Shown one piece after another: positions 9,310 through 59,965 of a DNA stretch of 64,000 nucleotides. A model generated the notes under the pieces. That model had not been told where the DNA came from. It worked only from the letters and a program-made list of their open reading frames with translations, and did not search any database. Made by a program: the position numbers and the translations under genes. Origin of the DNA: Puerhibacterium puerhi (GTDB taxonomy: Bacteria; Actinomycetota; Actinomycetes; Actinomycetales; Cellulomonadaceae); the NCBI RefSeq assembly GCF_009846865.1, contig NZ_WUWN01000003.1, forward strand, positions 124,001 to 188,000. Reading direction: 5' to 3'. The stretch's first letter is position 1. Each line of letters starts with the position of its first letter.

Positions 9310-11361
9310 ATGCCGGTCAGCAAGGACTTCTACTCCGCCTACGCCCAGGGCTACGCCCGGGTGGCGGCCGTCACCGTGCCGGTGCGCGCCGCCGACCCCG
9401 CCGCCAACGCCGCGACGATCCTCGAGCAGGCGCGCGCCTGCCACGACGAGGCGGTCGCCGTCGCCGTCTTCCCCGAGCTCGGGCTGTCCGGCTACTCCAG
9501 CGACGACCTGTTCCTGCAGGACGTGCTGCTCGACGGCGTGCTGGAGGCCCTGGCCGAGATCGTCGAGGCGAGCGCCGACCTGCTGCCCGTGCTGGTCGTC
9601 GGCGCCCCGCTCGAGGTCGGCTCCCGCGTGCTCAACTGCGCCGTCGTCGTGCACGGCGGCCGCATCCTCGGCGTCGCCCCGAAGTCCTACGTGCCCACCT
9701 ACCGCGAGTTCTACGAGCGGCGCTGGTTCGCCCCCGGCGACGACCGCCGCGGCCAGACGATCGAGCTGCTCGGCCAGCCGGTGCCGTTCGGGCCGGACCT
9801 GATCTTCGCCGCGTCCGACGTCGCCGGCCTGCGCGTGCACGTCGAGGTGTGCGAGGACCTGTGGGTGCCCGTGCCGCCGTCGGCCGAGGCGGCGCTGGCC
9901 GGGGCGACCGTGCTGGTCAACCTCTCGGGCTCGCCCATCACCGTGGGCCGGGCCGAGGACCGCCGGCTGCTGGTGCGCTCGCAGAGCGCCCGCTGCCTGG
10001 CCGCGTACGTGTACGCCGCCGCCGGCCAGGGCGAGAGCTCCACGGACCTGTCCTGGGACGGGCAGACGATGATCTACGAGCGCGGCGAGCTGCTCGCCGA
10101 GACCGACCGGTTCCCGGACGGCCCGCGCCGCGCCGTCGCCGACGTCGACCTGGACCACCTGCGCCAGGAGCGGCTGCACCAGGGCACGTTCGACGACAAC
10201 CGCCGCACGCTGGCCGACCGCACCGGCGCCTTCCGCACCGTGGAGTTCGAGCTGCGCCCGCCGGCCGGCGACGTGGGCCTGCGCCGGCGCGTGGATCGCT
10301 TCCCGTTCGTGCCGGACGACCCCGAGCGCCTGGCCCTGGACTGCTACGAGGCGTACAACATCCAGGTCTCCGGCCTGGAGCAGCGCATGACGTCGATCGG
10401 CAGCCCGAAGATCGTCATCGGCGTCTCGGGCGGCCTCGACTCGACGCACGCGCTGATCGTGGCCGCCAAGGCGATGGACCGGCTGGGCCGGCCGCGCACC
10501 GACATCCTGGCCTACACGATGCCGGGCTTCGCCACCGGCACCGAGACGAAGGACCGCGCCTGGCGCCTGGGCCGCTCCCTCGGCGTGACGTTCGAGGAGC
10601 TCGACATCCGGCCCGCCGCCACGCAGATGCTCACGGACATGGGCCACCCCTTCGGGCGGGGCGAGAAGGTCTACGACGTCACCTTCGAGAACGTCCAGGC
10701 GGGCCTCCGCACCGACTACCTGTTCCGGCTGGCCAACCACCACGGCGGCATCGTGCTGGGCACCGGCGACCTGTCCGAGCTCGCGCTCGGCTGGGCCACC
10801 TACGGCGTCGGCGACCAGATGTCGCACTACGCGGTCAACACCGGCGTGCCCAAGACGCTGATCCAGCACCTCATCCGTTGGGTCATCGAGTCGGGGCAGT
10901 TCGAGGCCGAGACCAACACGGTGCTCGACGAGATCCTCGGTCAGGAGATCTCCCCCGAGCTCGTGCCCGCCGACGACGACGGCAAGCTGCAGTCCACCGA
11001 GTCGAAGATCGGCCCGTACGCGCTGCAGGACTTCACGCTGTTCTACGTGCTGCGCCACGGGTACGCGCCGAGCAAGATCGCCTTCCTCGCCTGGCACGCC
11101 TGGCGCCACGCGGCCGCCGGCGAGTGGCCGCCCGGGTTCCGCGGCGAGCACGCCGAGTACGACCTGGCGACGATCCGCCGGTGGATGCAGCTGTTCTTCC
11201 GCCGGTTCTTCGCCAACCAGTTCAAGCGGTCGGCGATCCCGAACGGCCCCAAGGTGGCCGGCGGCGGCACGCTGTCCCCGCGCGGCGACTGGCGCATGCC
11301 GTCGGACGCGTCGTCGGCGGCGTGGCTGGCCGAGCTGGAGGCGAACGTCCCGGAGGCCTGA
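9310..11361 (+). CDS. nadE: Glutamine-dependent NAD+ synthetase
   Basis: 683 residues, the length of two-domain NadE. The N-terminal amidase (nitrilase fold, about 1-300) frees ammonia from glutamine, with the Glu-Lys-Cys triad in [10 protein letters not shown] (E56), PKSYVP (K125) and EVCEDLW (C181). The C-terminal synthetase adenylates and amidates deamido-NAD, with its PP-loop SGGLDST at 373-379. [11 protein letters not shown] and [12 protein letters not shown] are further family motifs. This is the last step of NAD biosynthesis in the cytosol. No SD is seen; CAGACT ends six bases before ATG, so the mRNA may be leaderless. Monocistronic. Confidence 0.96.
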
Positions 11362-16540: not shown

Positions 16541-17245
16541 TCAGGCGCTGGCCAGGGGTACGGCCTTGACCACCGGCTCCCAGCGGCCACGGTCCAGCGG
16601 CGGGGCGTCCTCGTCGATGCGCCCGGCCCAGACACGAGCGTCCGCGATCGTGGCCTCCAGCAGCTCGCGCAGCCGGTCGTCGCAGTCGGGGACGAAGGCC
16701 TCGGCGATGCCCTGCACGGCCGTGGACACCACCGACGGGGCGGCGTCGCGCACGAACCGCTTGGGCTTCACGTGCGTGCCCTCGCAGAACTTCTGCGCCC
16801 ACTCCGCCGTGCGGGGCACGGTCGCGAGCGCCGCGACGGACTCCGGGGCGAGCGTGCCCAGCGGGCGTCCCTCCAGCACGTCGAGCATGCGCTCCGACCC
16901 GTAGATGGCCACGGCGAGCGTCTGCTGGCGGTCGGCCGGCGCCACGGGCAGGGCGGTCTGCGCGGCGCGCAGGGCGATGCGCACGTCCCAGCGCGGGTCG
17001 TCGCTGGCGAGCCCGATGACCGACGGGATCAGCGGCGCCAGGCGCGGGCGCTTCTCGTCGCTGGTCAGGTCGTTCACCGCACGCGCGAGCATGGCCAGCA
17101 GCGGGTGCGTGCACTGCGGGTGGTCGCTCCAGCGTTCGCCTGCGAGATACGACGCCAGCTCCATGAAGCAGGCGCCTTTCTTCGGGTTCCGGTGCTTGCC
17201 GCGTCCCAGCATCGGCAGGACGTCGAGCGTGTCGTCTCCAGCCAC
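16541..17245 (-). CDS. Conserved-looking protein of unknown function
   Basis: 234 residues from GTG 17245. I do not recognise a named family. It begins with a positively charged loop (MLGRGKHRNPKKGACFMELAS) and continues with helical, leucine-rich segments, HPLLAMLARAVND and RLAPLIPSVIGLASDD, reminiscent of an all-alpha repeat fold. There is no signal peptide or membrane helix, so it should be cytosolic. Codon use and GC3 match the neighbours. It is a single-gene unit with a terminator after it. GGGGGTGG before the GTG may be its RBS. Confidence 0.7.
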   Translation of the reverse strand: MAGDDTLDVLPMLGRGKHRNPKKGACFMELASYLAGERWSDHPQCTHPLLAMLARAVNDLTSDEKRPRLAPLIPSVIGLASDDPRWDVRIALRAAQTALPVAPADRQQTLAVAIYGSERMLDVLEGRPLGTLAPESVAALATVPRTAEWAQKFCEGTHVKPKRFVRDAAPSVVSTAVQGIAEAFVPDCDDRLRELLEATIADARVWAGRIDEDAPPLDRGRWEPVVKAVPLASA

Positions 17246-17466
17246 GGTCCACCCCCGGTTCGGGTTCGGCTCTGCACTTCGTCGGCAGCTACTCCAGTGT
17301 GCGCGCGGTGTGACGCACGCCGCAACGGATAAGCGGCGCCCGGGGGCCGCCCACGGCTACCCGTGGCGGGTGAACTCTCGCCGGCCGGCGACGGGCGGGT
17401 CGTCGCGGGGTCCACCCCCGTGCCGCGTCCGCGCGGGTGCGGGCCGGAGGTCGACGAAGGGCGACT

Positions 17467-17528
17467 GTTCGGTGATTCGTTGGCTGATCGGCGATCCGGA
17501 TCGCCGATCAGCCAGCGAATCACCGAAC
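17467..17528 (-). repeat. 62-bp dispersed palindrome, copy 1
   Basis: Two 31-bp arms meet at ATCC|GGAT with no loop. The left arm begins GTTCGGTGATTCG and the right arm ends CGAATCACCGAAC. One arm position is a G-T wobble. A second copy lies at 57900-57961 in opposite orientation, judged from matching flanks: GGTCCG next to one end and CAG next to the other. The copies differ at several positions, and one pair of changes is compensatory. This copy lies between divergent genes, so it is not a simple gene-end terminator. Confidence 0.85.
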
Positions 17529-17595
17529 GGACCGGAGGCCTCGCGCGGGGCCGGCCGCGGACGGCGCCGCACGGCGCTGCCCACGGCACTGGGCC

Positions 17596-17703: not shown

Positions 17704-17822
17704 GGCCGACGCCCCAGGAACGGTCGATCGCCCGATGCCGCCACCCGGTGCCTTACCGCGAGCGTGGAGCGCATCGAGGGATGCACGAGGCGCCGACGCG
17801 GCGCGAGGACGAGGGAGCGGTC

Positions 17823-18146
17823 ATGACGAGCAGCACGTGGGACCCGAGCACCGACGCCGAGGTGGCGTACCGGGCCGAGCAGGCGCAGCGGGCGTACGCC
17901 GGCGGAGCGCGAGGCGGGCGCCGCGAGAGCTGGGTGCGCGCCGCCGCGCGCCAGTGGTGGGACCTGTGGGTGCGGGGCACGGCGTGGGTCGGCGAGGGCG
18001 TCTCCCGCGTCGGCGACACGCTCGACGGCGTCACCGCCCAGCACGACGGCTCGTGGGACGAGTACGTGGCGCGACGTGCCGCGGAGATCGAGCGTGGCCT
18101 GGACGGGGCGCGGCCCGAGGACGCCCGCCGCGCGACCGGCCGATGA
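17823..18146 (+). CDS. Small hydrophilic protein of unknown function
   Basis: 107 residues from ATG 17823, with GAGGGAG about seven bases upstream. The protein is charged and Trp/Arg-rich (RQWWDLWVRGTAWVGEGVSRVGDTLDGV in the middle), probably helical, without membrane or signal segments. I do not recognise it. It precedes the large LuxR ATPase gene; if that gene starts at 18143 rather than 18272 the two would overlap by ATGA and be coupled. Confidence 0.55.
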   Translation: MTSSTWDPSTDAEVAYRAEQAQRAYAGGARGGRRESWVRAAARQWWDLWVRGTAWVGEGVSRVGDTLDGVTAQHDGSWDEYVARRAAEIERGLDGARPEDARRATGR

Positions 18147-26797: not shown

Positions 26798-27756
26798 CGG
26801 CGGCTCCGGCCGCCCGGGGTGCCGTCGGGGACGCCATGCCGCTGCGCGACCGGCTGCTGGCGGTGTCCGTGGCGGTGATGTGGGGCGCGAACTTCCTGGC
26901 CATCGACGCCTCGCTGGGGCACTTCCCGCCGATGTTCCTCGTGGCGCTGCGGTTCGCCCTCATCGCCGTGCCGACGATCCTGCTGGTGCCGCGGCCCGAC
27001 GTGCCGCTGCGGTGGCTGGTCGGGTACGGCGTGGGGTTCGGCACGCTGCAGTTCCTGTTCCTGTACTGGGGGATGGCCGCCGGGATGCCGGCCGGCCTGG
27101 CCTCGCTGGTGCTGCAGGCGTCGGCCCCGTTCACGGTGCTGCTGGGCGCGGTGCTCCTGCGCGAGCGGGTCAGCGGCCGGCGCCTGGTGGGGATCCTCGT
27201 CGCGGCGGCCGGGCTCGCCGTCGTCGGCTGGGAGCGGGCCGAGCACGCCGCGGTGCTGCCGTTCCTGCTGACCCTGGCCGGGGCGCTCGGCTGGGCCTTC
27301 GGCAACCTCTGCAGCCGGCAGGCGCGCCCGTCGCAGCCCCTGCACCTGACCCTGTGGATGTCGGTGGTGCCGCCGCTGCCGATGCTGGCGCTGTCCCTGC
27401 TCACCGAGGGTCCGGCCCGCATCGCGGAGTCGTTCGCCACGCTGGGCTCGCGCTCCGGCGTGGTCGCCCTGGTCGGTCTGGCGTACACGGTGCTGGTGGG
27501 CACCGTGCTGGGCTCGGGCGTGTGGACCGGGCTCATGGCCCGGCACCCGGCCGGCGTCGTCGCGCCGTTCTCCATGCTCGTGCCGGTGGTGGGCATCTCG
27601 ACGGCGTGGCTGGTGCTCGGCGAGACCGCCTCGCTGCTGGAGATCGCCGGCGGCGTGCTCGTGGTGGGCGGCGTGCTGCTGGGCGCCGCCGGGTCGCGGC
27701 GCCGCGCGCCGGAGCCTGCGGTCCCGGAGCCGGCGCCCGTCAGGCCGACGGGCTGA
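26794..27756 (+). CDS. EamA/DMT-family transporter
   Basis: 320 residues from GTG 26794 (ATG 26836 also possible). Ten hydrophobic helices in two EamA halves: LLAVSVAVMWGANFLAIDASL at the start, LVLQASAPFTVLLGAVLLRE at the end of the first half, and APFSMLVPVVGISTAWLVLGE at the end of the second. DMT-family exporters carry amino acids or other small metabolites; the substrate is unknown. Translationally coupled to the exonuclease gene, with no obvious functional link. Its 3' end overlaps the convergent VOC gene by 17 bp. Confidence 0.9.
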   Translation: MTAAPAARGAVGDAMPLRDRLLAVSVAVMWGANFLAIDASLGHFPPMFLVALRFALIAVPTILLVPRPDVPLRWLVGYGVGFGTLQFLFLYWGMAAGMPAGLASLVLQASAPFTVLLGAVLLRERVSGRRLVGILVAAAGLAVVGWERAEHAAVLPFLLTLAGALGWAFGNLCSRQARPSQPLHLTLWMSVVPPLPMLALSLLTEGPARIAESFATLGSRSGVVALVGLAYTVLVGTVLGSGVWTGLMARHPAGVVAPFSMLVPVVGISTAWLVLGETASLLEIAGGVLVVGGVLLGAAGSRRRAPEPAVPEPAPVRPTG

Positions 27757-28417
27757 AGACGCAGAACTCGTTGCCCTCGACGTCCGCCATCACGGTCCAG
27801 CGGATCTCGTCGTCGGGCTCGCGCAGCACGCGCGCGCCGCGGGACACCAGGTCGGCGACCGTCACCCCGGGGCGCAGGTCCACGTCCCAGTGCACGCGGT
27901 TCTTCACGGTCTTCGGCTCGGGCACGGGCGCGAAGTCGAACGACTCGAACGGCACGCCGGCGGCGCCGTCGAGCCACCACCAGCCGTGCTCGGCGTCGTG
28001 GCCGAGCTCACCGCCGAGCAGCCCCTGCCAGAACCGGGCCACCGCCTCGGGGTCGGCGCAGTCGACGACGACGTCCTTGAGCCGGTAGTCGCCCACGGGC
28101 CTCTGCTCGAAGACGCACAGCTCGCCGCCCTCGGGGTCGGCCACCACGGTCCACGGGAAGCGCCCCGGCGCGGACAGCCGCGGGCCGACGACGTCGTCAA
28201 GCGCGGCCGCCCGCACGTCCAGGTGCACGCGGTGCTTGACGGTCTTGGGCTCGGGCACCGCGTTGACCCACACCGTGCGCTCGGGCCGGTCGCCGCGCAG
28301 CACGACGCCGCGGTCGAACGGCTCGGGCCGCAGGCCCAGCACCTGCCCCCACCACCGGCTCAGCAGGTCGGCGTCGACGGCGTCCACGCACAGGTCCTTG
28401 TACGACACCAGCGTCAT
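27740..28417 (-). CDS. VOC-family protein with two glyoxalase-like modules
   Basis: 225 residues. Two modules of the glyoxalase-like type: DLCVDAVDADLLSRWWGQVLGL...HLDV...VVADPEGGELCVFE (1-110) and DVVVDCADPEAVARFWQGLLGGELG...HWDVDL...VMADVEGNEFCVFS (115-222). Both keep PEPKTVK(H/N)RVH, a motif common in actinobacterial proteins of this group. Substrate unknown. The start at 28417 is supported by TACGCT six bases upstream. Its last 17 bp overlap the EamA gene on the other strand. Confidence 0.85.
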   Translation of the reverse strand: MTLVSYKDLCVDAVDADLLSRWWGQVLGLRPEPFDRGVVLRGDRPERTVWVNAVPEPKTVKHRVHLDVRAAALDDVVGPRLSAPGRFPWTVVADPEGGELCVFEQRPVGDYRLKDVVVDCADPEAVARFWQGLLGGELGHDAEHGWWWLDGAAGVPFESFDFAPVPEPKTVKNRVHWDVDLRPGVTVADLVSRGARVLREPDDEIRWTVMADVEGNEFCVFSPSA

Positions 28418-28429: not shown

Positions 28430-28460
28430 CGGCGACCGCGGCCCGCGCACCGCCGCACCC

Positions 28461-28553
28461 GCCGAGATAGAGAGGTGCCCCGCCGAGATAGAGAGGGGGC
28501 TCTCTATCTCGCCGGGACACCTCTCTATCTCGGCGCGAGGGGTCTCTATCTCG
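28461..28553. repeat. Nested palindrome of five 12-mer units
   Basis: CGAGATAGAGAG occurs at 28463 and 28484; its reverse complement CTCTCTATCTCG occurs at 28500 and 28521, and an 11-base version at 28543. The first four form an almost perfect palindrome with arms of about 35 bp (28461-28495 and 28500-28534; two mismatches) around a short GGGG centre. It is much AT-richer than its surroundings. It lies past the stop of the RpiB-type gene and before the VOC promoter, so it may end the long catabolic operon. Confidence 0.85.
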
Positions 28554-28562
28554 GCGAGGAGG

Positions 28563-29045
28563 TCAGCAGGCCGGGGCCTGTCGCTCGCCCGCCGCGCGGT
28601 CGTACTCCTCGAGCGCGGCCACCTTCGCCGCCGAGGCGGAGGTCTCGTCGAAGACGTGGTCCAGCCACTGGCTCGCGAGCTGCTTGGCGAGCTCCAGCCC
28701 GATGACGCGCTGGCCGAACGTCAGCACCTGGGCGTTGTTCGACTTCACGAGGCGCTCGACGGAGAAGGAGTCGTGCGCCACCGAGGCGCGCACGCCCGGC
28801 ACCGTGTTCGCCGCCATCGCGACGCCGATGCCGGTGCCGCACACCAGCAGCGCGCGGTCCACCTCGCCGTCGGCGACCTTGCGGCCGGCCGCGACGCCGA
28901 TGTGCGGGTAGTCGACGTCCTCGTCCGAGCCGACGCCGACGTCGACGACCGCGTCGACGCGCGGGTCGTCCTGCAGCTGCTTCTTCAGCGCTTCCTTGTA
29001 CTCGTAGCCGGCGGAGTCAGCGCCGACGGCGATGCGCCATCCCAT
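28563..29045 (-). CDS. RpiB-family isomerase, probably for a tetrulose 4-phosphate
   Basis: 160 residues, RpiB length. CGTGIGVAMAANTVPGVRA carries the catalytic Cys and the phosphate loop. The usual His of the SDHAG motif is Ser here (GADSAGYEYK) and the usual NDANVL reads SNNAQVL, deviations I associate with the erythritol/threitol branch of the family (EryI/DerI), which interconverts D-erythrulose 4-phosphate and D-erythrose 4-phosphate. That assignment is inference, backed by the adjacent DAK-type kinase. Last gene of the five-gene catabolic operon; plain ribose-5-phosphate isomerase is the alternative. Confidence 0.82.
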   Translation of the reverse strand: MGWRIAVGADSAGYEYKEALKKQLQDDPRVDAVVDVGVGSDEDVDYPHIGVAAGRKVADGEVDRALLVCGTGIGVAMAANTVPGVRASVAHDSFSVERLVKSNNAQVLTFGQRVIGLELAKQLASQWLDHVFDETSASAAKVAALEEYDRAAGERQAPAC

Positions 29046-42295: not shown

Positions 42296-42320
42296 CGCCG
42301 CGTCGGCGCCCGCCGACACG

Positions 42321-42380
42321 TTGTGGGTAAAGGACACGCCGGGCGTTCCGCGGAACGCCCGGCGTGTCCTGTACCCACAA
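42321..42380. terminator. 60-bp palindromic bidirectional terminator
   Basis: Left arm TTGTGGGTAAAGGACACG... (42321-42350) and its reverse complement (42351-42380) match at 29 of 30 positions with no loop. It lies between the convergent stops of the VOC gene (42295) and ppc (42390). Confidence 0.8.
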
Positions 42381-42389
42381 CGGGGAGGG

Positions 42390-56187: not shown

Positions 56188-57087
56188 ATGATCACCGTGG
56201 AGCACCTGACCAAGAGGTACGGGCCGCACACGGCCGTGGACGACGTGTCGTTCACGGCCGCGCCGGGCCACGTCACCGGCTTCCTGGGCCCGAACGGCGC
56301 CGGCAAGTCGACCACCATGCGGATGATGTGCGGGCTGACGCCGGCCACGTCCGGCACGGCGCGCGTGCTCGGTGTGCCGTACGCGGCGCTGCCCAACCCG
56401 GGCCGCCGCGTCGGCGTGCTGCTCGACGCCGCCGCCCAGCACGCCGGCCGCACGGGCCGCGAGGTGCTGACGCTGACCGCCCTGCTGACCGGCGTCGAGC
56501 GCCGCCGCGTGGACGCGATGCTCGACCTCGTCGGGCTCACCTCCCGTGAGGCCTCGCGCCGCGTCGGCGCCTACTCGCTCGGCATGCGTCAGCGCCTGGG
56601 CATCGCGAACGCCCTGCTCGGCGACCCGGAGGTGCTGATCCTCGACGAGCCGGCCAACGGCCTGGACCCGGCCGGCATCCGCTGGATGCGCGACCTGCTG
56701 CAAAACTTCGCCGGCCGCGGCGGCACCGTGCTGCTGTCCTCCCACCTGCTCAGCGAGGTGGAGCTGGTGGCCGACCGCCTCGTCGTGATCGGCCGCGGCC
56801 GCATCGTGGCGCAGGGCACCAAGGACGAGCTGCTGCGCCGGGCCGGCACGTTCGCCCGGTCGGACGACGACGCCGCGCTCGCCGCGGCGCTCCAGGCCGC
56901 GGGCATCGCGGCCGAGCGGCTGGCGACCGGCGGCGTCACCGCCGAGGCCGAGGCCCCCGACGTCGCCCGCGCGGCCGCCCGCGCCGGCGTCGTGGTCGTC
57001 GAGCTGCGCGCCGCCGACTCCCGCGGCCTCGAGGAGCTGTTCCTCGAGCTCACCGCCGACGACGCCCGAGAGGCGGTGTCCGCATGA
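56188..57087 (+). CDS. ABC transporter ATP-binding protein
   Basis: 299 residues from ATG 56188 (GGGGAG nine bases upstream). MITVEHLTKRYGPHTAVDDVSF, Walker A LGPNGAGKST, signature YSLGMRQRLGIA (LSGGQ variant), Walker B VLILDEPANGLDPAGI, switch His LLSSHLLSEVE, and the C-terminal FLELTADDAREAVSA typical of the BcrA/CcmA group. Powers the permease encoded next, with which it overlaps by four bases. The group exports peptides, lipids or antibiotics. Confidence 0.93.
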   Translation: MITVEHLTKRYGPHTAVDDVSFTAAPGHVTGFLGPNGAGKSTTMRMMCGLTPATSGTARVLGVPYAALPNPGRRVGVLLDAAAQHAGRTGREVLTLTALLTGVERRRVDAMLDLVGLTSREASRRVGAYSLGMRQRLGIANALLGDPEVLILDEPANGLDPAGIRWMRDLLQNFAGRGGTVLLSSHLLSEVELVADRLVVIGRGRIVAQGTKDELLRRAGTFARSDDDAALAAALQAAGIAAERLATGGVTAEAEAPDVARAAARAGVVVVELRAADSRGLEELFLELTADDAREAVSA

Positions 57088-57884
57088 GCGCCCCCGCCGT
57101 CGCGCGCCCGACCTCCCACGCCGGCGCCACCGGCGCGGTCCGGCCCGTCTCCTTCGCCACGCTGACGCTCGTCGAGTGGCGCAAGCAGCTCGACACCCGC
57201 GCCGGGCGCTGGCTGCTCGTCACCATCGGCATCGTCACCGCCGCCGTCCTGGCGATCATGGCGATCGTCGACGGCGGGAACCACTCGTTCGAGGCGTTCC
57301 TGGTGGGCACCTCGACGCCGATGCTCCTGCTGCTGCCGATCGTCGGCGTGCTGGCGGCCACGTCCGAGTGGTCGCAGCGCACCGCCCTGGTGACGTTCGC
57401 CCTCGAGCCGCGGCGCACCCGCGTGGGCCTGGCCAAGCTGCTCAGCGCGGTCGCCTCCGGCGTCGTGTTCTTCCTCGGCGCCGTCGCGCTGGCCGCCCTG
57501 GCGCACCTCGCCGTCGTCGTGCTGCGCGACGCGGACCCCGCGTGGAGCCTCGACGCGGGCGTCCTCGGCGGGCTGTTCCTGATGGTCGTGCTGGTCATGG
57601 CGCAGGGCATCGGCTTCGGCCTCGTGCTGCTCAACACGCCCGCCGCGATCGTGAGCCTGCTGGTGCTGCCGACGGTGTTCACGATCGTCGGCTCGCTCAT
57701 CCCCGGCATCGTCGACGCGCTGCCCTGGATCGACCTGAGCACCGCGAGCGAGCCGCTGCTGCTGGGCGAGGCCCCCGACGGCGAGCAGTGGGCGCACCTG
57801 GCCACCGCGTCGCTCATCTGGGTGGTCGCGCCGGTGGTCGGCGGCCTGGTACGGGTGGAGCGGCGCGAGGTGAAGTCGGCCTGA
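57084..57884 (+). CDS. ABC-2 type transporter permease
   Basis: 266 residues, ATG 57084 overlapping the ATPase stop. About six membrane helices, starting with VEWRKQLDTRAGRWLLVTIGIVTAAVLAIMAIV, then FLVGTSTPMLLLLPIVGVLAATSEWSQRTALVTFALEPRRTRV, the usual amphipathic loop of BcrB-like permeases. Forms the exporter with the ATPase. Under probable control of the divergent two-component system. Followed by palindrome copy 2. Confidence 0.9.
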   Translation: MSAPAVARPTSHAGATGAVRPVSFATLTLVEWRKQLDTRAGRWLLVTIGIVTAAVLAIMAIVDGGNHSFEAFLVGTSTPMLLLLPIVGVLAATSEWSQRTALVTFALEPRRTRVGLAKLLSAVASGVVFFLGAVALAALAHLAVVVLRDADPAWSLDAGVLGGLFLMVVLVMAQGIGFGLVLLNTPAAIVSLLVLPTVFTIVGSLIPGIVDALPWIDLSTASEPLLLGEAPDGEQWAHLATASLIWVVAPVVGGLVRVERREVKSA

Positions 57885-57899
57885 CGCCGCGCGGGTCCG

Positions 57900-57961
57900 T
57901 TCGGTGATCCGTTGGCTGATCGGTGATCCGGATCGCCGATCAGCCAACGGATCACCGAACA
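57900..57961 (+). repeat. 62-bp dispersed palindrome, copy 2
   Basis: 31-bp arms (57900-57930, 57931-57961) meeting at ATCC|GGAT. Same family as 17467-17528. Where copy 1 pairs T with A (GATTCG/CGAATC), copy 2 pairs C with G (GATCCG/CGGATC). This copy starts 16 bases after the permease stop and ends 24 bases before the antiporter stop, so here it may serve as bidirectional terminator. Confidence 0.88.
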
Positions 57962-57984
57962 GACGCTCGGGGGCCGGCTGCGGC

Positions 57985-59721
57985 TCAGGCGGGCCCGCGC
58001 CGCATCTCGAGCGTGATCTGCTCGGCGTCGAGCAGGTCGAGCGCCCGCTCGAGCTGCCGCGAGTCGTGCACGCCGGCCGACCGCTCCTTGAGCAGCGCGG
58101 CCCGCTGCGCGTCGATGGTGCGCAGGCGCAGCTCCCGGTACTGCTTGAAGCGGTGGGTGGTCTCGCGGGCGTCGACCTCCTCGGTCGCGTGGTCGTGCAC
58201 GACGTCGCCCCGCACCCGCGCGACGACGTCCGGCTCGTAGGGGGTGCCGTCGGCGCGGGCCAGCCCGCCGTCGTCGAGCAGCCGCTGCGCGGCCGCCTCG
58301 ATCACGGCGCGCAGGGCCGCGTACTCCTGCGGGTCCACCTGCCGCGTGCCGCCGAGCCCGAGCCGCTTGACCACCCACGGCAGCGTGCCGCCCTGCACCA
58401 CCAGCGTGCCGGCGGCGACGCCGAACGCCACCAGCACCACGAACGAGCGGTGGGGGAACTCCGCCGGCAGCGACTGCGCCGCGGCCAGGGTGACGACGCC
58501 GCGCATGCCGGCCCACACGAGGAGCACGCCCTCGCGGGGACCGAGCGGCTTGGCGGTGAGGTAGTCGATGTCGGCCGCGCGCCGGCGCAGGAGCCGCTGC
58601 ACGCGCCGGGCCCGCGCCGCGGGCACCTGGCCGGGGCCGCCGGTGCGGCCGCCGTCGGACGCGGCGGCGGCGAGCTTGTCCTGGATGCGGTCCTGCATCC
58701 CCTGCAGCACGCTGCGCAGCGACTCGGCCCGCCGGGCCCGCCGGGACAGCTGCCACAGCAGGGGCGCCACGTACGCCGACCGGACGACGAGCACGATGAC
58801 GGCCGCGAGGGCCGCGATCCCGGCCCCGCGCCACAGGCTGCCGTGCTCGGCCCGCACGTCCTCCACCAGCGCGAACAGCTCGAGGCCCATGACGAGGAAC
58901 ACCGCGCCCTCGAGCAGCATGTCCACGGTGTGCCAGTTCGCGTTCTCCGCGACGCGGTCCTGCGGCCGCAGGCGCGCCGCGCCGTGGCCGGTGATGAGGC
59001 CCGCCGTGACCACGGAGACCAGGCCCGACGCGTGCACGTGCTCGGCCGGCAGGTACGCCACGAACGGCACCACGAGCGAGACGGCAGTGGACAGCGCCGC
59101 GCTGGCGACCCGGCGTCGGACCTGCAGGCCCAGCCACCCGACGACGGCGCCGCACACCACCGCGCCGACGACCGCCCACAGGAAGTCGCCCACCACCTCG
59201 GCCAGCGACACGCTGGCCGCCGTCGCCGCGACGGCGGAGCGCAGCAGCACCAGGGCCGAGGCGTCGTTGAGCAGCCCCTCCCCCTCGAGCACGGTGACCA
59301 CGCGCGGGTTGGCGCCGAGCCGCCTGACGATGGACGTCGCGACGGCGTCGGTGGGGCTCACGATGGCGCCGAGCGCCACGCCGCCCGCGAACCCGAGCCC
59401 GGGCACGAGCGTGGAGAACACCAGGCCGAGCAGCAGCGACGTGATCACCACGAGCACCACCGACAGCCCGCCGATCGCGGCGAAGTCGCGCCGGAAGTCC
59501 ATGGTGGGCATCGACACGGCGGTGGAGTACAGCAGCGGCGGCAGCACGCCGGCGAGGATCCACTCGGGCTCGATCTCGATGGCCGGCACGAACGGCAGGA
59601 AGCTCACCGCCACGCCGAGGAGCACGAGGATCAGCGGTGCGGCCACGCCGGTCCGGGGTGCGAGGGCGGTCACGGCGATGATGACGACGGCCGCGGCGGC
59701 CCCGATGACCAGCAGATCCAT
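57985..59721 (-). CDS. Na+/H+ antiporter, CPA1 family
   Basis: 578 residues. About twelve membrane helices with the CPA1 core: GAIVSPTDAVATSIVRRLGANPRVVTVLEGEGLLNDASALVL (ND ion site) and WAGMRGVVTLAAAQSLP. The C-terminal 150 residues are a soluble, helical regulatory tail. It would exchange Na+ (or K+) for H+ across the membrane for pH and salt balance. GAGACT ends six bases before ATG 59721. Monocistronic; it converges on palindrome copy 2. Confidence 0.93.
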   Translation of the reverse strand: MDLLVIGAAAAVVIIAVTALAPRTGVAAPLILVLLGVAVSFLPFVPAIEIEPEWILAGVLPPLLYSTAVSMPTMDFRRDFAAIGGLSVVLVVITSLLLGLVFSTLVPGLGFAGGVALGAIVSPTDAVATSIVRRLGANPRVVTVLEGEGLLNDASALVLLRSAVAATAASVSLAEVVGDFLWAVVGAVVCGAVVGWLGLQVRRRVASAALSTAVSLVVPFVAYLPAEHVHASGLVSVVTAGLITGHGAARLRPQDRVAENANWHTVDMLLEGAVFLVMGLELFALVEDVRAEHGSLWRGAGIAALAAVIVLVVRSAYVAPLLWQLSRRARRAESLRSVLQGMQDRIQDKLAAAASDGGRTGGPGQVPAARARRVQRLLRRRAADIDYLTAKPLGPREGVLLVWAGMRGVVTLAAAQSLPAEFPHRSFVVLVAFGVAAGTLVVQGGTLPWVVKRLGLGGTRQVDPQEYAALRAVIEAAAQRLLDDGGLARADGTPYEPDVVARVRGDVVHDHATEEVDARETTHRFKQYRELRLRTIDAQRAALLKERSAGVHDSRQLERALDLLDAEQITLEMRRGPA

Positions 59722-59810: not shown

Positions 59811-59891
59811 GGTCGGCAGCTCGTCGCCGGGTCGGCAGCTCGTCGCCAGGTCGGCAGCTCGGGGTGCCGATCTCGCGACGAGGTGCCGAGC
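59811..59891. repeat. 19-bp tandem repeat with inverted copies
   Basis: GGTCGGCAGCTCGTCGCCG (59811), the same with a final A (59830) and a partial third copy (59849-59864). Inverted, diverged copies of the core follow (CGCGACGAGGTGCCGAGCTC near 59874), so the block can fold into hairpins. It lies between the divergent antiporter and lipoprotein genes. Confidence 0.8.
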
Positions 59892-59965
59892 TCAGGAGCC
59901 GACGGCGCCCGGCTCCCGGCGGCTGCGCGTGCGGAACGCGGTGACCAGGGGCAACATCCTCAGCC

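Follow-up and report, generated by a model that had tools for sequence, protein, structure and literature searches.

What kind of sequence is a long, nearly perfect palindrome that occurs twice in the same 64,000-nucleotide stretch of the Puerhibacterium puerhi genome (hereafter the window), once between divergent and once between convergent genes? The first-pass annotation had reported a pair of 62-bp palindromes at 17467-17528 and 57900-57961. Both are present at these places, and alignment with further copies establishes an element of 70 bp rather than 62, made up of GTCTGTTCGGTGATTCGTTGGCTGATCGGCGATCC with its mirror directly after it and thus of two 35-bp arms. Copy 1 occupies 17463-17532 (arms 17463-17497 and 17498-17532, no strand assigned), matches a covariance model of the family with 92.8 bits, and does lie between divergent genes as had been reported, namely a 234-aa ORF on the minus strand (16541-17245; no Pfam or NCBIfam match) and an ORF of about 121 aa on the plus strand (about 17781-18146, start uncertain; no convincing family match), both of which have their starts towards it. 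Copy 2 (57895-57964, likewise without strand) fills a convergent gap: a membrane-protein-like ORF (57084-57884, plus strand, no Pfam match), which follows an ABC ATPase-like ORF directly, stops 10 bp short of it, and the stop codon of a gene that by eye resembles a cation/proton antiporter (57985-59721, minus strand) lies 20 bp from its other side. The start of this last gene faces a third element at 59827-59895 (no strand assigned; model E-values 2.9e-7 and 4e-11), situated between divergent genes, which belongs to a second subfamily (B) of the superfamily that also holds the first two copies (subfamily A), and in which a 19-bp tandem repeat (GGTCGGCAGCTCGTCGCCR), starting at about 59812, forms the left side. 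A simple independent-base estimate at the GC content of the window puts the number of chance palindromes of this quality (at least 31 of 35 pairs) at about 1e-7 per 64 kb.

The two copies of subfamily A proved to be part of a larger set. A DNA search combined with an 18-mer arm search of the P. puerhi assembly (3.9 Mb in 94 contigs) recovered 22 full copies of subfamily A and 1 cut by a contig end, and a broader covariance model (R2, built from 60 elements), which added subfamily B with its GTGAGCTCGGCACCTCGTC units, brings the total with sister subfamilies to about 30. On the practical side, one contig of this assembly (C63) stops within a copy, at 10970, and some copies may therefore hide in assembly gaps. 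With up to 2 mismatches allowed, all 44 of the 44 arm matches fell inside palindromes, one of which loses its mirror at a contig end; apart from degraded or contig-end copies the 18-mer search of this genome found no lone arms, and none standing singly in genes. The inverted DNA-uptake sequences of Neisseria and Haemophilus act as terminators, and single uptake sequences are also very numerous, most of them lying within genes. The elements described here share with them the inverted pairs at gene ends and the lineage dialects, but their 18-bp arms are found solely in mirrored pairs and the copies are few, and a DNA-uptake reading was rejected on account of the missing lone arms. Nothing in the window matched Rfam above the gathering score, and collections of phage, plasmid and viral sequences gave no real match to the element.

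Each element consists of four copies of a unit of roughly 12-16 bp with the core NTCGN, set in the order forward, forward, reverse, reverse about the centre, such that an arm is two direct unit copies at 19-bp spacing. Nearly all arms carry the trinucleotide TCG at arm positions 7-9 and 26-28, which the picking rule favoured and which the BLAST-found set shows as well, and most have (T)TCG at 15-17. Units from one element resemble each other more than they resemble those of the other elements in the genome (p 0.0005 in P. puerhi; p < 0.0005 in genome G003, from another genus), and tandem 19-bp or partial-arm repeats adjoin some elements. One position of subfamily A behaves differently from the rest: at arm pair 30/41 the states are T|G in 11 copies, C|A in 10, C|G in 12 and T|A in 1 (n=34), so the arms differ in most copies and an asymmetric state is in excess within an otherwise symmetric element.

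Is the pairing itself maintained? A T-A pair in copy 1 that is C-G in copy 2 had been noted at one arm position, and this is correct (arm position 15/56), while the remaining differences, which had been taken for G-T wobbles, are one-sided transitions that read as G-T on one strand and A-C on the other. The fair tests of covariation are the set of BLAST-found copies and the counts among orthologues. In the former (35 copies, gathered with no structure filter) double changes occur at 10 of the 33 pairs, and none of 500 shuffles reached the covariation score; among 12 same-genus orthologous pairs of copies, 14 changes from one Watson-Crick pair to another were observed where about 1.4 are expected. 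A second alignment (A2) shows very strong covariation, which is partly circular because its members were chosen with a palindromicity filter. It is almost certain that the dispersed family is real and keeps its pairing. The earlier proposal went further and took pairing-preserving changes to imply selection on a folded RNA or on extruded DNA; the compensatory changes are real in both fair tests, yet on their own they fall short of proving selection, and templated correction from arm to arm could produce them too. Taken to its limit, such correction would make the likeness of the arms a product of mutation alone, with template switching or hairpin repair copying arm to arm, slippage copying unit to unit, and the compensatory changes as by-products. 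The greater likeness of units within an element, the tandem repeats beside some elements and the strand symmetry of the pairing are all consistent with this account, but it leaves unexplained the near-constant consensus across copies, the fixed TCG positions, the placement at gene 3' ends and the retention at shared sites amid flank turnover described below, and we regard it as improbable.

Across the family, BLAST detected the element in its own genus only, plus one marginal partial match elsewhere in the order. Reaching further required covariance models, the first of which (R1) recovered full-length relatives from 43 of 150 genomes, representing 9 of the 25 genera of the family. At the level of the order, R2 matched 27 of 297 genomes, in several families and more weakly than within the family, and for some weak order-level matches (L223, L228-L236) the layout is not clear. 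Among 396 genomes of the phylum the own genome was the sole match, in a run where only 12 candidates were scored per genome under strict filters and weak or rare copies could escape; R2 therefore does not fire on GC-rich palindromes generally. Between genera the layout is constant and the letters differ, as in the arms TGATCGGTAGTTCGTCGCATGATCGGCAGTTC (G003), GTCTGGTCGTCGGTTCGGGGTCTGGTCGTCGGTTC (G033) and GTGGTCGGTAGTTTGTCAGGTGATCGGCACCCC (G114), and units 1 and 2 change together across lineages, matching each other more closely than the lineage average would give (identity 0.78 between the units of an arm, 0.63 to other genera). In a genome of another family (G212), CCGAGTTCGCTAGTTCGTG-type units alternate in orientation to form BIME-like arrays, their centres spaced at 42 bp. 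These data show a superfamily of dispersed intergenic repeats that is restricted to one actinobacterial order and keeps its pairing while its sequence drifts into dialects.

With regard to genes, all copies of the genus that have two called neighbours are intergenic, the calls coming from a simple codon-position-GC caller that leaves some error in individual contexts. Of 24 contexts in P. puerhi, 12 were co-directional, 7 convergent and 5 divergent, convergent gaps being over-represented by length (p 0.007) and marginally by number (p 0.06). The bias was stronger in G003 (9 convergent, 11 co-directional and no divergent contexts, n=20; p 4e-5 by intergenic length and 0.007 by pair count), where a TGA inside the element serves as the stop codon of some genes and yields a repeated gap of -6; some divergent cases occur in other genera. 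The median distance past the stop codon was 19.5 bp in G003, 21.5 bp in other genera, 43 in the sister species introduced below and 102 bp in P. puerhi. Coding signal dips at the element in apparent in-gene copies of other genera, and such calls look like merged ORFs. In P. puerhi and its sister species the neighbours are ordinary genes (purC and purD, ndk and smc, leuA and recO, pgm and bpa, transporters), and a regulon reading was discarded since they share no common function.

From the position of copy 1 between divergent genes it had been concluded that simple termination does not explain the element. This is true of copies in divergent gaps, copy 1 included; over the family as a whole, copies cluster at 3' ends and in convergent gaps, and termination is therefore still a leading explanation. 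We put at about 50% the probability that the elements act as bidirectional, U-less hairpin signals for transcript ends, a reading drawn from sequence and position. Transcribed from either side, an element would fold into a hairpin of about 33 bp (the predicted RNA fold, with flanks, is about -70 kcal/mol, z -8 to -10), which would halt RNA polymerase or act as a roadblock to it, cap the mRNA 3' end, or do both, and would keep transcription from running on into a convergent neighbour; copies in divergent gaps may be insulators or tolerated by-products of spreading, and new copies would arise through a copying mechanism that does without a RAYT transposase. This account is the best supported: it agrees with the position of the copies, their pairing and symmetry, their retention in place and their replacement by other hairpins. 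Canonical L-shaped terminators differ in having a T-tract directly after the hairpin, which hardly any element has (57 of 68 flanks carry 0-1 T in 8 nt). A closer likeness is to the U-less 'I-shaped' terminators described within 50 bp of stop codons in mycobacteria, whose sufficiency is disputed (PMC12288462): those too are strong GC-rich hairpins with no T-tract close behind stop codons, although the hairpin here is far longer, has a sequence shared between copies and occurs also between divergent genes. Several observations speak against a terminator. Five of the 24 P. puerhi copies, some of them conserved, lie between divergent genes, where a terminator has no need to be; a shared primary sequence and four co-varying units are not needed for termination; and the stop distances in P. 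puerhi are the longer ones. Nor is there a clear RNA-strand signal, as non-Watson-Crick pairs on the transcribed strand of co-directional contexts comprise 33 G-U versus 23 A-C (p 0.23).

Comparison with a sister species (G001, contigs matching Isoptericola variabilis JZ7, NZ_LWGM01; 13 copies) bears on how the copies are kept. At 12 aligned orthologous sites the element is 77-96% identical, against about 0.47-0.61 in a gapped alignment of the adjoining intergenic DNA, and the orthologue of copy 2 in this species (L102) is identical at 64 of 70 positions between flanks that can barely be aligned. Copies are also kept in divergent gaps of both species (L078/L098, L090/L099 and L083/L104), and differences in the presence or absence of copies exist. 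Orthologous copies do not resemble each other significantly more than non-orthologous copies do (63.0 against 62.8 of 70 identical, p 0.32), and copies are therefore held near a common consensus through selection, conversion, or both. At two orthologous gene ends one long hairpin substitutes for another: where P. puerhi has the element, at L088 (pgm/bpa; sister locus L110) and at L080:1312 (siderophore-interacting protein / DUF3072; sister locus L107:3443), the corresponding gap of the sister species holds an unrelated perfect hairpin family.

The divergent minority, the shared four-unit sequence and the absent RNA-strand bias give some weight to a mobile-element origin and to a DNA-binding or topology role. 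The former would be a miniature non-autonomous element, its arm a terminal repeat with two sites for a putative transposase or copying enzyme, and its 3'-end placement a matter of harmless insertion spots. Multicopy families with lineage dialects, the mosaic arrays of G212, the differences in copy presence between sister species, the co-variation of units 1 and 2 (expected if one protein reads both) and the equal likeness of orthologues and paralogues (compatible with copy replacement) are in keeping with this. Weighing in the other direction, Y1 tyrosine transposases (RAYT, PF01797) were found in none of 8 element-bearing genomes from 6 genera while control genomes were positive; 18-mer matches in P. 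puerhi come in mirrored pairs, bar degraded or contig-end copies; most copies of the genus sit conserved at shared ancestral sites; and by eye neither target duplications nor flank homology was noticed, the flanks being too diverged for clean empty sites. On balance we consider mobility a rather unlikely explanation.

The same transposase search bears on the earlier suggestion of an undescribed REP-like element of the lineage, which is supported by the many copies, by the significant covariation in BLAST-found copies and by the 14 double compensations among orthologues, and is to be amended in that the element is not confined to the lineage, forming an order-wide superfamily with dialects, and is not REP proper. 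Neither of the outcomes that were to refute the suggestion, a genome with no more than these two copies or an alignment lacking significant covariation, came about. REP units are 20-40 bp palindromes tagged at one end by an unpaired GTAG or CGTC (PMC3733652). Like the REP, REPIN and BIME sequences of Enterobacteria and Pseudomonas, the present elements are dispersed, multicopy intergenic palindromes, arranged as inverted doublets, hairpin-forming and lineage-specific in sequence, with mosaic arrays in one family (G212). They differ in being loop-less, near-perfect, symmetric 70-bp palindromes of four units without a one-sided unpaired tag, and in numbering tens of copies versus hundreds. The element thus works like a REP/BIME system yet fails two defining features of REPs, the RAYT partner and the 20-40 bp tagged unit. 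ERIC, NEMIS and similar repeats are palindromes, imperfect to perfect, that lie between genes, are inherited vertically at many sites and have no obvious transposase of their own. The elements resemble them in all of these respects, and are set apart, going by general descriptions, through sequence, length and internal four-unit layout. No description of such repeats in this order was found in open-access papers, and an undescribed, REP/BIME-like superfamily is the best reading.

In a role at the DNA level the four units would serve, as an array of binding sites or as an extruded cruciform, a putative protein that structures the chromosome (a nucleoid protein or topoisomerase, for instance), comparable to the E. 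coli BIMEs, which lie where transcription units end and supercoils accumulate. For REP itself, binding by gyrase is a known case, as indicated by an entry in the reference list of PMC8049555. The strand-symmetric pairing constraint, the TCG cores at fixed 19-bp spacing (in part a selection criterion), the co-varying units, the copies conserved between divergent genes and the G212 arrays with centres about 42 bp apart would all suit such a protein, and the absence of a theme among neighbour genes is neutral. Binding by a dimer alone, however, would not require one arm to compensate for the other at variable positions, and we consider this role unlikely as well.

More speculatively, the superfamily might be the cis partner of a putative order-specific trans factor, RNA- or DNA-binding, that reads the four NTCGN units at 19-bp spacing on a hairpin or cruciform. 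Shifts in its specificity between genera would drag all four units and so create the dialects, and the whole would form a termination, insulation or chromosome-topology system outside REP/RAYT, a proposal that we hold only tentatively. The superfamily itself would represent a REP-like system that spans an actinobacterial order, shows strong covariation and clear lineage dialects, and lacks the transposase by which REPs are explained elsewhere. Its elements are suited to the study of U-less termination or boundary elements in high-GC bacteria, and of the spread of short palindromes and their co-evolution with their readers, and are ready-made candidate two-way insulators.

Several further observations concern single loci and other hairpins. 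In P. puerhi two copies lie about 1.07 kb apart (L091:2967-4038), whereas the sister species has one and a half copies (L103:1735) and is missing the intervening stretch, possibly through recombination between palindromes. A gene for a 323-aa protein (L081:3263-4234; orthologue L100:938-1885) has an element copy on either side of it in each of the two species; a two-copy composite transposon was considered here and dropped, the protein having no Pfam or NCBIfam match. A separate multicopy hairpin family, CGTTCCGGGTCCCTGGCGGTCCGAGACAG plus its mirror, stands at gene ends in the sister species (L107:3409-3479, L108:5455-5520, L110:1738-1800) and in P. puerhi (L239:200); it is the family that takes the place of the 70-bp element at the two orthologous gene ends mentioned above. 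Within the window, a long hairpin repeat at 28453-28556, between two minus-strand genes (27740-28417 and 28563-29045), contains several CGCCGAGATAGAGAGG units in mixed orientation and matches R2 weakly; GAGATAGAG palindromes in G127 (L174:820, L184:316) resemble it. Finally, a 64-bp near-perfect palindrome with CGTTGTGGGTAAAGGACACGCCGGGCGTTCCG arms occupies a gap between convergent genes at 42315-42386, 20-odd bp past a stop codon, in a layout like that of the third hairpin family of the sister species.
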